Origin: Beverwykella pulmonaria
Lineage: Eukaryota; Ascomycota; Dothideomycetes; Pleosporales; Melanommataceae
NCBI GenBank assembly: GCA_001599595.1
Contig: BCHH01000004.1
Location: 813,905-877,904, forward strand
Direction of reading: 5' to 3'
DNA length: 64,000 nucleotides
Shown here: piece by piece, positions 34,041 to 38,694 of the stretch
Layout of the letters: each line of letters begins with the position of its first letter
Position numbering within the stretch: position 1 is the first letter of the stretch
The notes under the pieces: model-generated
The model's database searches: none
Told to the model about the DNA's origin: nothing
Seen by the model: only the letters and a program-made list of their open reading frames with translations
Translations under genes and position numbers: made by a program

Positions 34041-37000
34041 TCAAATCCGACGGAGCCTTTGAAGGAACCTATGCCGCCTAGATACATGTATCGTCGAAGT
34101 ATTTGTACTCGATGTTGGCTGTGACATTGCCGACGTATTCGGACCAGTCCTATCAGATGGGATGCTGCCATTAGAGATTGGCAAGGCGCTGAGCTTCTCT
34201 TCGACATCTTGACACTTGTGATGATTGATCCCAAAGATATTCCGGTAACCAGCGAGAGCCTTCATGTACATCCTTCTAGCTCCGTCTCTGTTACCCTGCT
34301 CAGCAAACAATAGCCCCATATTATATGCGGTATGAAGTGCAGGTATGTATGATGCAGCAAGGTCTAACCCTAAGGCTTTCTCGTAGCCTTGCAGCGCCCG
34401 AGTATACATGGCCTCCGCGTCGGCCAGCTTGCCTTGGTTTTTGTAGAGGTTGCCTAGGTTGTTGACCGTCTGGAGTGTCGATGTGTGCTTCGGTCNNNNN
34501 NNNNNNNNNNNNNNNNNNNNNNNNNNNNNNNNNNNNNNNNNNNNNNNNNNNNNNNNNNNNNNNNNNNNNNNNNNNNNNNNNNNNNNNNNNNNNNNNNNNN
34601 NNNNNNNNNNNNNNNNNNNNNNNNNNNNNNNNNNNNNNNNNNNNNNNNNNNNNNNNNNNNNNNNNNNNNNNNNNNNNNNNNNNNNNNNNNNNNNNNNNNN
34701 NNNNNNNNNNNNNNNNNNNNNNNNNNNNNNNNNNNNNNNNNNNNNNNNNNNNNNNNNNNNNNNNNNNNNNNNNNNNNNNNNNNNNNNNNNNNNNNNNNNN
34801 NNNNNNNNNNNNNNNNNNNNNNNNNNNNNNNNNNNNNNNNNNNNNNNNNNNNNNNNNNNNNNNNNNNNNNNNNNNNNNNNNNNNNNNNNNNNNNNNNNNN
34901 NNNNNNNNNNNNNNNNNNNNNNNNNNNNNNNNNNNNNNNNNNNNNNNNNNNNNNNNNNNNNNNNNNNNNNNNNNNNNNNNNNNNNNNNNNNNNNNNNNNN
35001 NNNNNNNNNNNNNNNNNNNNNNNNNNNNNNNNNNNNNNNNNNNNNNNNNNNNNNNNNNNNNNNNNNNNNNNNNNNNNNNNNNNNNNNNNNNNNNNNNNNN
35101 NNNNNNNNNNNNNNNNNNNNNNNNNNNNNNNNNNNNNNNNNNNNNNNNNNNNNNNNNNNNNNNNNNNNNNNNNNNNNNNNNNNNNNNNNNNNNNNNNNNN
35201 NNNNNNNNNNNNNNNNNNNNNNNNNNNNNNNNNNNNNNNNNNNNNNNNNNNNNNNNNNNNNNNNNNNNNNNNNNNNNNNNNGCCTCCTCGTAGCCTTGCA
35301 GCGCCCGAGTGTACATGGCCTCCGCGTCGGCCAGCTTGCCTTGGTTGGCGTAGAGGGCGCCTAGGTTGTGCAGCGCCCATTCTATTCCCCCAATATTTAC
35401 GTTACCGTCCGTGATGAAATGTTCCTGTCTTCTAACATGTTGAAGGAGCCGCTGCTGTAGGAGCCACCATTTGTCTACGTCTGTGCTAGGAACTTCAGAT
35501 GCCACGCAAGTCAGGGATAGCCTTACCAGGCTATCGTCCCACTCGCTATTTAACACGGATATCATCCATGAGTGCACACAGCTATGGACACTATACCCTG
35601 TAGACCTAGACAGCTGTTGAAGTGAAGGTTCCGTGTGAGCCAGACTATATTCGCATAGCAGTCGAACTGCCTCGTTAAAGTTCAGATAGTCCTCAGTAAG
35701 CTTTCGTATCCACTCGTCGTCTGTAGAGCCTGCGTGTCGAAGAAGTTCAAACCACAAGTCTTGCTTATCAAAATATGCCCACAGCTTGAGCAACTGGGCT
35801 GATGCCGCATTCTGTTTCTGTATCTGATTAAATGTGACCTGCCAGGTTGTATATAGTGATTGGTTTTCATATGAACTTAACCTTGGACTTGTCTTCTGGA
35901 GTTTCAACCACGACGCCTCATAGAGCTGAAGATACTCTGCAAAGCTTGTAGTCACGTGCTCTAGATATGTCCCAGCCGTAGAGAGAGCAAGGGGCAGGCC
36001 ATCTAGCTTCACGACAAGCGCATGCGCATCAGGATCTATCTTATTAGTCCTGTTCAGCTCGATTTTCCCCTAAAGTAACATACCGTTCTTGATACCCTCT
36101 CTTCTAGACATATTTGACAAAATCTTAAGCCCGTCCTCAGGTCCTGTGAGCTTCTGAACGTGGAGACGTTGTCCTTGGGTAACATTTGCTGACCGCGTTG
36201 TGATGATGATTGAACCGTGGTCAGTTTCTGGTAAATATTGACGTATATCCACTGTTGAGTGTTCAGAAACAATAGAGGTTCTGGGAGTGTCATAATTGTC
36301 ATAGATTATCAGCCAACGAGTATTTTCCCAGAGATCAAGCCAGGCTTTGACTGCATTGACCACTTGATTTAGGTCTCCTTCTAAATCTACATTAACAAGC
36401 ACTCTAGTTGAAGGATGATACTTTAGGACTTGCTGAGCGATGCCGCGAAAGCTCAATCGGAGAGAATCTTCATTGTTCGCGTTCAGCCAGAATATCGCCG
36501 TGTATTTCTCCTTATGTCGTCTGACGTATTCCACTGCTAGCTGAGTCTTTCCGATTCCTCCAAGCCCGTGAAGAACGACTGCTGATCGGCTACTGTGGCC
36601 ATGAAGCAGTTCATACATCTTCAATAGCTCATTCTCTCTAGCAACAAACTGTGCGGCTTCAGGAAATGACAAAATGTTGAGCCCGACGGCAAATTGCTCG
36701 AAATCAATACCTGTACTGGTCAGTTACATTTCAGTCAGCGCATCTATACGAAGACTTCACCCTTATACAACCTGTGGATCTCTTCCTCCAGCCGCCGGAA
36801 TGCTCGGTCCCTTCCCTCCCCGTAGTTTGGCACCATAGAGACATCGAATATCCCGATCAAACAGTATACTTCATCTTCTTCAATCTTAGTCTCACGGCGC
36901 TCTGCCCAGGACCTTCGCTCTTTGATGCTAAAATTCGTCAATGTATCGCCTCGGAGAGCAGTCTTCGCGATGCTGGTAATCTCGTGTATCTCGGACTCAA

Positions 37001-37511
37001 GCAGTGATTTGTTCCCAAGTCGCTCACCCTCTAAGCTGAAGAAGTCAACCAGCCTTGGTGCGATAAGCTCTTGAAGCGTCCAACCCCGGGTGAACCATCG
37101 ACTCATCCTAAAGGCCTTTCCCCATCCCCTTTCGCCATCTGCTCCGTTGTCAGGTTTGGAGACATCTGAAAGGTAGACGTAGCAGCGCGCAGCGTTCTGA
37201 TACCAACGAAACATGGAATTGATCGCCGCGCCGAGCTCGACTGCATTCCTCTTATCAATACAGCAGGTGTCTATCCAGAAGTATTGCAGTCCATCAGCTG
37301 CGGCCTGATCCGCGCAGAATTGTATCTTCCTCCACCCAGCCTTGTTCACAGTCTTGCTCATGTCCGCGTTGGCTTTCATGTCCGGAAAGATGACCTCCCC
37401 TTCTCCCCATGTATGAGATAGTATTGCGTAGGCAGGAACATCGCCGCTAGTAGGGTCGCGAAAGACGACCTTGCCGTCCGGGTTGCGCTGTAGGAGGCGT
37501 ATGAAAGCCAT
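34041..37511 (-). CDS. HET-NB-ARC-TPR NLR protein (gap in repeats)
   Basis: Exons 37511-36761, 36710-36084 and 36035-34041, the last broken by the gap at 34496-35281. Residues 1-250 are a HET domain: AYAILSHTWGEGEVIF, WIDTCCIDKRN and RGWTLQELIAP. The NB-ARC follows, with P-loop GLGGIGKTQLA, Walker B WLIIYDNYD, sensor GSIIITTRS and GLPLALSTAG. The C-terminus has TPR repeats of the type NLGNLYKNQGKLADAEAMYTRALQGYEKA. HET-NLRs trigger cell death in non-self recognition; that is family knowledge. The second intron (36083-36036) has GTATGT, a CTAAT branch and TAG, and removes an apparent in-frame stop. Frames before and after the gap differ, so either the N count is an estimate or there is a frameshift. 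Confidence 0.85.
34496..35281. other. assembly gap (786 N) inside TPR repeats
   Basis: The run of N is flanked on both sides by almost identical 60-bp stretches coding the same TPR segment (about 34380-34440 and 35285-35345), so the gap very likely reflects near-identical tandem repeats that could not be assembled. The true length is unknown. Confidence 0.95.
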
Positions 37512-38436
37512 GGCTTAGGGTCGGGTGCGATCTCGCAACAAGGGCGACTCGTGCGGCTTACAGTTCAAAGATCAACAGAATGGATGCAGACATCGAAGGA
37601 CTGATCGTGATAAGGTTATGCAGTGGTGATCGAAGGTGCTGCCAACGAGGCTACATCGTGGCGTAGGCTGGTCGGCTAGTTGCATAAGAAGGCAGACAAC
37701 AGTCACAACACCCATTTTATTGGAAGCTTGCGCACTGCACACTAAATCCTGGCACGTGCTGCTCAATGCCACAAGCCATTTGAGGTTTTGCGCAGTTGTA
37801 TCAAGTTTGACAAGCAGCGAGGTATGTCGTGGACGATTGTCAGGGCGAATTTGCTCTTAGACAGATAGCCTTCGCAAACTGCTTTCTGTAACAATGGAAA
37901 TGAACGAAGGAACGCAAGTGGCACGATGCGGTCCAGTACTAATAGTACCCCACACATAATTTTGAAGCTAAAAGCCGACAGCGGAGTTTCCGCAGGGTAA
38001 GTCTAGAGGAGGTCATGATTTAGAGATGAGAGATGTGCTTGTCTTGAATTCTTAGTAGCGTGCACCTTAGCATTCTCTGGCCCCCTGCACTCCTGCATCC
38101 ATCTGCCCCATCTAAATTTCGTGCTAATCCAAACTCTTTGTGTGCCAATTCCGATGCTTGAAGTGAATGGCGTAAAGTTCATCGGGTATAATTCGGCCTT
38201 TTCGTCCCTGGCATCAAAAACGTGCGACCAACCACAGGCTCTTGTAAGCGCATTCAGCGGGGTAAGAGCTGTCATGCAGTCGCAAACCGCGGTGTATGGC
38301 GTATTCATAGCTGTGTGGGGTTCTCGCATGCGCTCGGTCCCTCTGTTCGCCTCGACCACTTTACTTGTTATTATTTTTATGATATATAAATTATTTAAAC
38401 TTCAAAATCTTCCAAAATTCAAAACAAAATTGTCCG
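37512..38436. other. intergenic between NLR gene and tRNA gene
   Basis: Holds the NLR promoter. Small open frames match nothing known. The stretch before the tRNA (about 38360-38430) is AT-rich. Confidence 0.4.
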
Positions 38437-38673
38437 GCTGTAAGTGCCACACCTCGTTCTTCTTTGGGAAGAACTTGACTAACTTAAGTTAAGCCTGTGG
38501 CGCAATGGTAGCGGTAAGTTGCGTAATCGCATCGCAACAGCTTATATCCTAATAAAATTTGGTAGCGTTGGACTTCTATAACGAATATATCCAAGTAAGA
38601 ATATTCTAATATGGTGGAAAAGACGGTATCTGACAACGAGCAGAGGCTGTGGGTTCGAGCCCCACCAGGAGTG
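38437..38673 (+). tRNA. tRNA-Arg(UCU) interrupted by three spliceosomal-type introns and one tRNA intron
   Basis: The mature parts are 38437-38439, 38494-38513, 38566-38578, 38589-38594 and 38644-38673, in all 72 nt. Joined, they give a complete cloverleaf: acceptor 7 bp (G1.U72 wobble), D stem GCGC/GCGC, anticodon stem TTGGA/TCCAA with loop anticodon TCT, T stem GTGGG/CCCAC with TTCGA, and G73. The removed pieces are 38440-38493 (GTAAGT, ACTAAC, AAG), 38514-38565 (GTAAGT, CTAAT, TAG) and 38595-38643 (GTAAGA, CTGAC, CAG), plus a 10-nt intron at 38579-38588 at the normal 37/38 site. A box (TGGCGCAATGG, 38498) and B box (GGTTCGAGCCC, 38652) are uninterrupted, and a T-run follows at 38675. Without the removals no tRNA folds. 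It may be functional or a pseudogene; the fit is too exact to be chance. Confidence 0.8.
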
Positions 38674-38674
38674 C

Positions 38675-38694
38675 TTTCTTTTTGCCTTTTTTAG
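38675..38694 (+). terminator. probable RNA polymerase III terminator
   Basis: T-rich runs (TTTCTTTTT and a further TTTTTT) start immediately after the 3' end of the tRNA, as expected for Pol III termination. Confidence 0.6.

Follow-up and report, generated by a model that had tools for sequence, protein, structure and literature searches.

Some yeasts carry mRNA-type introns in their U6 snRNA genes, a case that resembles the reading proposed here in that a Pol III transcript holds a spliceosomal intron, and that differs from it in that yeast U6 is itself a part of the spliceosome, whereas here U6 is contiguous and the introns lie in tRNA genes instead. Eukaryotic tRNA introns are placed mostly at 37/38 in the available part of PMC4090602, where the ectopic tRNA introns of nucleomorphs and of a red alga are described as short or of the bulge–helix–bulge (BHB) type. 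As here, the tRNA genes of Cyanidioschyzon merolae and of nucleomorphs hold several introns per nuclear-type gene, in the D and T arms and at 37/38; unlike here, those introns are short (3–24 nt in Guillardia) or BHB-type, and none is described as GT-AG in that part of the paper (PMC4090602). Spliceosomal introns are known in ascomycete nuclear rDNA, one of Cladonia grayi being 57 bp (PMC8527467, available part), and a 355-bp insert in the 18S gene of Pleosporales, said in the accessible text of PMC11889510 to begin after GT and to end with AG, is missing from the mature rRNA. As far as these texts extend, the rDNA introns are like those described below in being mRNA-type introns in an RNA not made by Pol II, but they sit in rRNA, at few sites in one repeated gene, as against 25 dispersed tRNA genes. 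Introner-like elements of fungi, including Dothideomycetes, offer a further parallel, spliceosomal intron gain in the same fungal class (PMC4457414, in part). The available portions of PMC6652019, PMC6461891, PMC11782384, PMC12730881 and PMC4457414 mention no spliceosomal intron in a tRNA gene, and no report of a spliceosome-processed tRNA is among the matches listed in the open-access literature, subscription papers and preprints being mostly outside it. tRNAs are not known to use the mRNA-splicing machine; ectopic spliceosomal introns are known, and those described here would extend them to tRNA.

The tRNA-Arg(UCU) gene at 38437–38673 of the window (the whole 64,000-nt stretch of DNA that was analysed) is very probably a working nuclear gene whose precursor would carry three U2-type spliceosomal introns and one ordinary tRNA intron, and such introns appear to have spread through the tRNA gene set. 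All parts lie on the forward strand. A TATA-like element, TATATAAA (38383–38390), stands 54 nt upstream of the mature 5′ end. Exon 1 (38437–38439) is GCT, nucleotides 1–3, which pair with 70–72 (G1·U72), and is followed by spliceosome-type intron 1 (38440–38493; 54 nt, at 3|4 in the acceptor stem; GTAAGT..ACTAAC..TAAG), whose branch CTAAC (38479–38483) has its A at 38482, 11 nt before the intron end. Exon 2 (38494–38513; nucleotides 4–24) supplies what is left of the acceptor 5′ strand, along with the greater part of the D arm, and spliceosome-type intron 2 (38514–38565; 52 nt, at 24|25 in the D stem; GTAAGT..CCTAAT..GTAG) has the branch CTAAT (38549–38553), with the branch A at 38552, 13 nt before its end. 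Exon 3a (38566–38578; nucleotides 25–37), with the anticodon TCT, is separated from exon 3b (38589–38594; nucleotides 38–43) by the 10-nt ordinary tRNA intron TAACGAATAT at 37/38 (38579–38588). Spliceosome-type intron 3 (38595–38643; 49 nt, at 43|44; GTAAGA..TCTGAC..GCAG) has the branch CTGAC (38630–38634), its A at 38633 being 10 nt before the end, and exon 4 (38644–38673) holds the variable loop, the T arm with the B box GGTTCGAGCCC, the acceptor 3′ strand and G73. A Pol III-type terminator, TTTTT (38679–38683), starts 6 nt past nucleotide 73.

The first-pass annotation had joined five exon pieces into a 72-nt tRNA-Arg(UCU), and base-by-base re-reading confirmed this assembly; ARAGORN names the joined form tRNA-Arg(tct) and treats the 10-nt piece, said to occupy the normal 37/38 site, as an ordinary intron, i(37,10). 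Our own cloverleaf parser found zero mismatches in any stem and one G·U in the acceptor, as had been claimed, and U8, G18G19, U33, TTC, the anticodon UCU and the discriminator G, features that speak to structure only, are present in the joined tRNA. Left in place, intron 1 does produce the two acceptor mismatches (AAGCCTG) described earlier, and the GTAAG starts, CTRAY branches, AG ends and lengths (54, 52 and 49 nt) of the three removed pieces agreed on re-reading. Intron 1 is the weakest element, resting on consensus signals and three base pairs, because exon 1 has just 3 nt. ARAGORN called no tRNA in the unspliced locus, and neither a whole-window ARAGORN run nor Rfam at gathering scores called one at 38437–38673. 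BLAST of the genome with the joined tRNA found no second intact tRNA-Arg(UCU) gene, another point that the annotation had named as bearing on its reading; the sole match was exon 4. The proposal that this tRNA needs both the spliceosome and the tRNA endonuclease gains support from 24 further tRNA genes with the same intron type, so that the single odd gene first noticed now reads as one of 25.

The genome (eukaryotic, 45.6 Mb, 31 contigs) was searched with the Rfam tRNA model, which matched at least 32 places at E≤0.001 and at least 39 at E≤10 (63 of 1174 first-look candidates scored), and further tRNA genes came from B-box patterns with terminators, a 12-letter motif designed to catch 58|59 introns, and BLAST. 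For one pattern of B box plus terminator, 100 of 110 places were considered, and regions were taken only if they resembled tRNA ends. The 12-letter motif occurs at 98 places, 84 of which were inspected (3 already in the set and 81 new, in 80 regions), and 12 of these 84 are tRNA genes; L067 was inspected without its upstream part. Bare B-box/T-loop motifs are not enriched over backward controls (204 versus 355, and 98 versus 157 for the 12-letter motif). The parser, which reads the cloverleaf after GT..AG pieces have been taken out, gave 55 full-length tRNA genes (L047 weakly), and the initiator Met genes L011 and L012 together with L146 and L147 bring the number found to 59. Spliceosome-type introns number 33, in 25 of the 59: three each in Arg(UCU) and Thr(UGU), two in four genes and one in nineteen. 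An ordinary 37/38 intron is also present in 19 of the 25. Nine of the 25 were found solely via the 12-letter motif, which was aimed at introns; leaving these out, 16 of 50 tRNA genes carry 21 introns in searches without that aim. The genes L030, L038, L039 and L040 are Rfam finds that had been read by eye at a stage when no splice filter was in use. L043, L048, L049, L052, L061 and L062, with no parse or a very low score, were treated as chance B boxes, and no tRNA gene was obtained from L106–L145; since the Asp genes L069 and L084 were readable by eye yet escaped the strict parser, genes among L106–L145 could be missed. Genes for Tyr, elongator Met, Ser(UGA), Val(UAC) and Pro(CGG) are absent from the 59, so the census is incomplete and unfound genes exist. 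L057 (G000:C17:711695-711764) is a weak tRNA match (31 bits) with a low parser score; it was not read as a nuclear-type tRNA, and is perhaps of organellar origin.

The 33 introns are 47–58 nt long except for one of 72 (median 52 nt). All end in AG, and 32 start with GT; the only non-GT 5′ site belongs to the 48-nt GC-AG intron of a Leu(UAG) gene (L041, G000:C1:909262-909408), which has a TACTAAC branch. CTRAY is the best branch candidate in 30 of 33 and the branch A lies 9–13 nt before the intron end in 30 of 33, both together in 29, a CTRAY branch at the short fixed distance from AG that marks U2-type introns. The 5′ sites are likewise U2-type in being GURAGU-like (+2 T in 32 and C in 1; +3 A/G in 31; +4 A in 26; +5 G in 32; +6 T in 27), a consensus partly imposed by the search at +3 and +5, through the GTRNG of the strict filter, and at +6, through the 12-letter 58|59 motif; the 21 introns of genes found without that motif have +4 A in 15 and +6 T in 15. 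For most genes the filter asked for GTRNG, NAG, a loose YTNAY-like branch and 40–130 nt, and it left free the CTRAY spacing and, for most genes, the narrow length. Rules were relaxed for five genes (L041, L051, L054, L069 and L084), that for L054 being a length of 44–60 nt with no branch required. Among strict-filter introns, 22 of 23 have CTRAY at 9–13 nt, compared with 121 of 2042 (5.9%) other passing candidates at the same loci, and 22 of 23 fall within 47–58 nt, compared with 12.3% of the other candidates.

Introns of coding genes in the window, taken from spliced alignments to homologues, measure 49 nt and then 52, 49 and 49 nt (n = 4); one of two such alignments was without an intron, and among five other gaps three were GT-AG, one gave none, and one, GC-only, was unused. 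The earlier statement that the tRNA introns resemble this genome's mRNA introns thus holds on a small sample of four, of which the 52-nt intron has the branch TTGAC, not CTRAY. A histogram of mRNA-intron motif counts over the window gave 12 against 6.8 expected at 45–49 nt and 9 against 8.4 at 50–54 nt, with most other length bins under expectation, and shows little. Unlike introner-like elements, which would be many near-identical introns, the 33 tRNA introns, compared with one another, show no similarity at E<0.01 apart from 15- and 12-nt matches between two Asp paralogues. In five pairs of paralogous genes the mature tRNAs are 99–100% alike in four and 85% in the fifth, and the introns of the same pairs are 60–77% identical (shuffled, 55–59%).

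Joining the exons restores tRNAs throughout. ARAGORN gave the expected anticodon for 23 of 25 joined genes, against 1 of 25 unspliced forms, and a different anticodon for the other two. With the cuts slid by −10 and +10 nt the number fell to 5 and 3 of 25, and slides of 1–2 nt still left 19–22, so the exact boundary is not fixed by ARAGORN. Our stricter parser read 25 of 25 at zero, 13 at −1 and 20 at +1, 1 at −10 and 0 at +10, and it met no acceptor mismatch in any of the 25 joined genes. In a decoy test on 62 loci of L041–L105, each of at most 1000 nt, real GT..AG rules gave a high-scoring joined tRNA at 15 loci, and four decoy splice rules gave 0, 0, 0 and 1, the single decoy match being L046, an intron-free gene. 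Insert boundaries are better fixed, without splice motifs, by intron-free sister genes: Ser(GCU) L030 and sister L021 have 1 mature difference, and the mature tRNAs are identical for Lys(CUU) L055 and sister L026, for Ala(AGC) L059 and L060 and sister L015, and for Pro(AGG) L051 (within G000:C5:1635400-1636022; two introns) and sister L146 (G000:C15:867298-867385). For all six inserts of these five intron-bearing genes, GT..AG is among the 1–4 possible placements. In the two Asp genes, where options of equal score existed, the D-loop boundaries were hand-picked.

A first tally gave 17 isoacceptors with intron-bearing genes only, from which two were then removed on account of intron-free genes, a Pro(AGG) gene identical in mature sequence and a diverged Asp(GUC) gene; the intron-bearing copies of these two may therefore be dispensable. 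The remaining 15, which among the 59 genes found have only intron-bearing full-length copies, are Cys, Glu(CUC), Phe, Gly(GCC), His, Ile(UAU), Leu(AAG, CAG and UAG), Pro(UGG), Arg(ACG and UCU), Thr(UGU), Val(AAC) and Trp. For Cys, Phe, His and Trp, each of the genes found carries one or more spliceosome-type introns. Genome BLAST found no other full-length copy of Arg(UCU), Cys, Glu(CUC), Phe, His, Trp or Thr(UGU); it missed the known, short-exon Thr(UGU) gene, and hence detects intact copies and not split ones. L148 (G000:C3:2370254-2370291) is a truncated Phe copy that lacks the intron present in the D loop of the full Phe gene.

The 33 introns occupy 16 sites: two of these are within the B box, 58|59 with twelve introns and 53|54 with five, and the other sixteen introns are spread over fourteen sites; none is at 37/38, the place of ordinary tRNA introns. 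The searches favoured 58|59, through the 12-letter motif, and 53|54, where an intron leaves the B box visible to B-box patterns. In the 16 genes found without the 12-letter motif, three introns at 58|59 and five at 53|54, of 21, make a preference for the B box likely and do not fix its size. In the Pro(AGG) gene L051 the second insert lies within the anticodon, between nucleotides 34 and 35.

A split B box should weaken TFIIIC binding. The twelve introns at 58|59 split it and should make for a weaker Pol III promoter, a loss for which the TATA-like elements upstream may make up. Such elements lie within −75 to −12 in 23 of the 25 intron-bearing genes and in all 30 of the other parsed tRNA genes, and T5 or longer runs lie within 60 nt in 25 of 25 and 25 of 30, respectively. 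Removal by the spliceosome could be right and the productive transcript nevertheless come from RNA polymerase II, Pol III being little used or unused for genes with a split B box. The 12 of 33 introns at 58|59, the TATA-like elements before 23 of the 25 genes and the fact that spliceosomes normally act on Pol II transcripts lend themselves to this reading; we judge it unlikely, given that T5 runs follow all 25 genes and that the same TATA-like elements precede all 30 intron-free ones. That Pol II is not required is indicated by the spliceosomal rDNA introns in the available part of PMC8527467. A different cutter, the tRNA splicing endonuclease, could also be supposed to remove the introns, as for the ectopic introns of Cyanidioschyzon, nucleomorphs and archaea, and archaeal ectopic introns at 3/4, 25/26, 53/54 and 59/60 (PMC4090602, available part) are at or near some sites here. 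In two BHB arrangements the full 4-bp central helix forms in 0 of 33 introns in either; 3 of 4 pairs form in 2 and 7 of 33. The same two arrangements applied to 39 ordinary introns gave 4 of 4 pairs in 3 and 2 and 3 of 4 in 4 and 18, so the test is weak, few ordinary introns passing it either. A helix-based cutter would leave CTRAY and AG at a fixed spacing unexplained, and we regard this alternative as very improbable.

Scarcely more probable than the endonuclease is that the intron-bearing loci are dead or dying copies and that the cell relies on intron-free tRNA genes. Intron-free copies do exist for Ser(GCU), Lys(CUU), Ala(AGC), Pro(AGG) and Asp(GUC), and the genes that the census missed (Tyr, elongator Met and other isoacceptors) leave room for more. 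This view has to contend with 15 isoacceptors that have only intron-bearing full-length copies among those found, with the BLAST result for seven of the 15, which sees intact copies and not split ones, and with joined genes that in 25 of 25 cases lack an acceptor mismatch and in 25 of 25 have a T5 run. Chance, by which a free-cut search would have picked short exons from AT-rich flanks, draws on the 3-nt exon 1 of the Arg(UCU) gene and on the relaxed splice rules in five genes, two of them with a hand-picked boundary. The decoy rules (0, 0, 0 and 1 against 15), the inserts fixed by intron-free sisters without splice motifs and a branch spacing that was not imposed make it exceedingly improbable.

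Under the preferred reading, spliceosomal removal from a Pol III transcript, we infer the splicing itself from the DNA as follows. RNA polymerase III would transcribe the Arg(UCU) locus, as its TATA-like element and T5 terminator suggest; U1 and U2 snRNPs would recognise the 5′ sites and the CTRAY branches, respectively, and the spliceosome would remove each intron of about 52 nt as a lariat. Trimming by RNase P and RNase Z would follow, and last the tRNA endonuclease and ligase would take out the 37/38 intron. Since the acceptor stem, D arm or T arm is interrupted by introns, splicing should precede the trimming. Making some tRNAs of this fungus thus probably needs the mRNA-splicing machine. 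With somewhat less assurance, we think it reasonably probable that at least the Cys, Phe, His and Trp codons and the Arg codon AGA can be decoded only after spliceosomal pre-tRNA processing, with several tRNAs needing the spliceosome and then the tRNA endonuclease, that mRNA splicing capacity is directly coupled to tRNA supply, and that spliceosomal introns are gained preferentially in the B box. If so, spliceosomal action extends widely to short structured tRNA precursors, tRNA processing must follow another order, with splicing first and end trimming later, and the supply of tRNA is bound up with the splicing of mRNA. Sister genes that share a mature tRNA within one genome, some intron-bearing and some intron-free, would form a clean natural system for studying how introns are gained and lost; that such genes escape tRNA finders is a warning.

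U6 and SRP RNA are usually Pol III products. Both are contiguous in this genome, and a general spread of introns over Pol III genes is therefore unsupported. The folylpolyglutamate synthase encoded in the window is 77% identical to that of Melanomma pulvis-pyrius and 69% to that of Pleomassaria siparia, the closest named matches; Melanomma belongs to Pleosporales, Melanommataceae. On this one protein the genome is placed in Pleosporales, and a lichen fungus, which rDNA introns had hinted at as the source, was rejected. Adjacent HET-domain and NB-ARC genes (Pfam) lie at 34041–37514 of the window, and a stretch at about 34.5–35.3 kb, within this region, translates as X. Elsewhere in the genome, a near-identical dispersed repeat, GTTCGACACGAAC.CAA.C.ACTTGCGTTG plus a T run, occurs at about 26 places among the matches listed (for example G000 C1:549837, C2:2495917 and C10:1760319), and its B-box-like start and T-run end could mean a short repeat made by Pol III.
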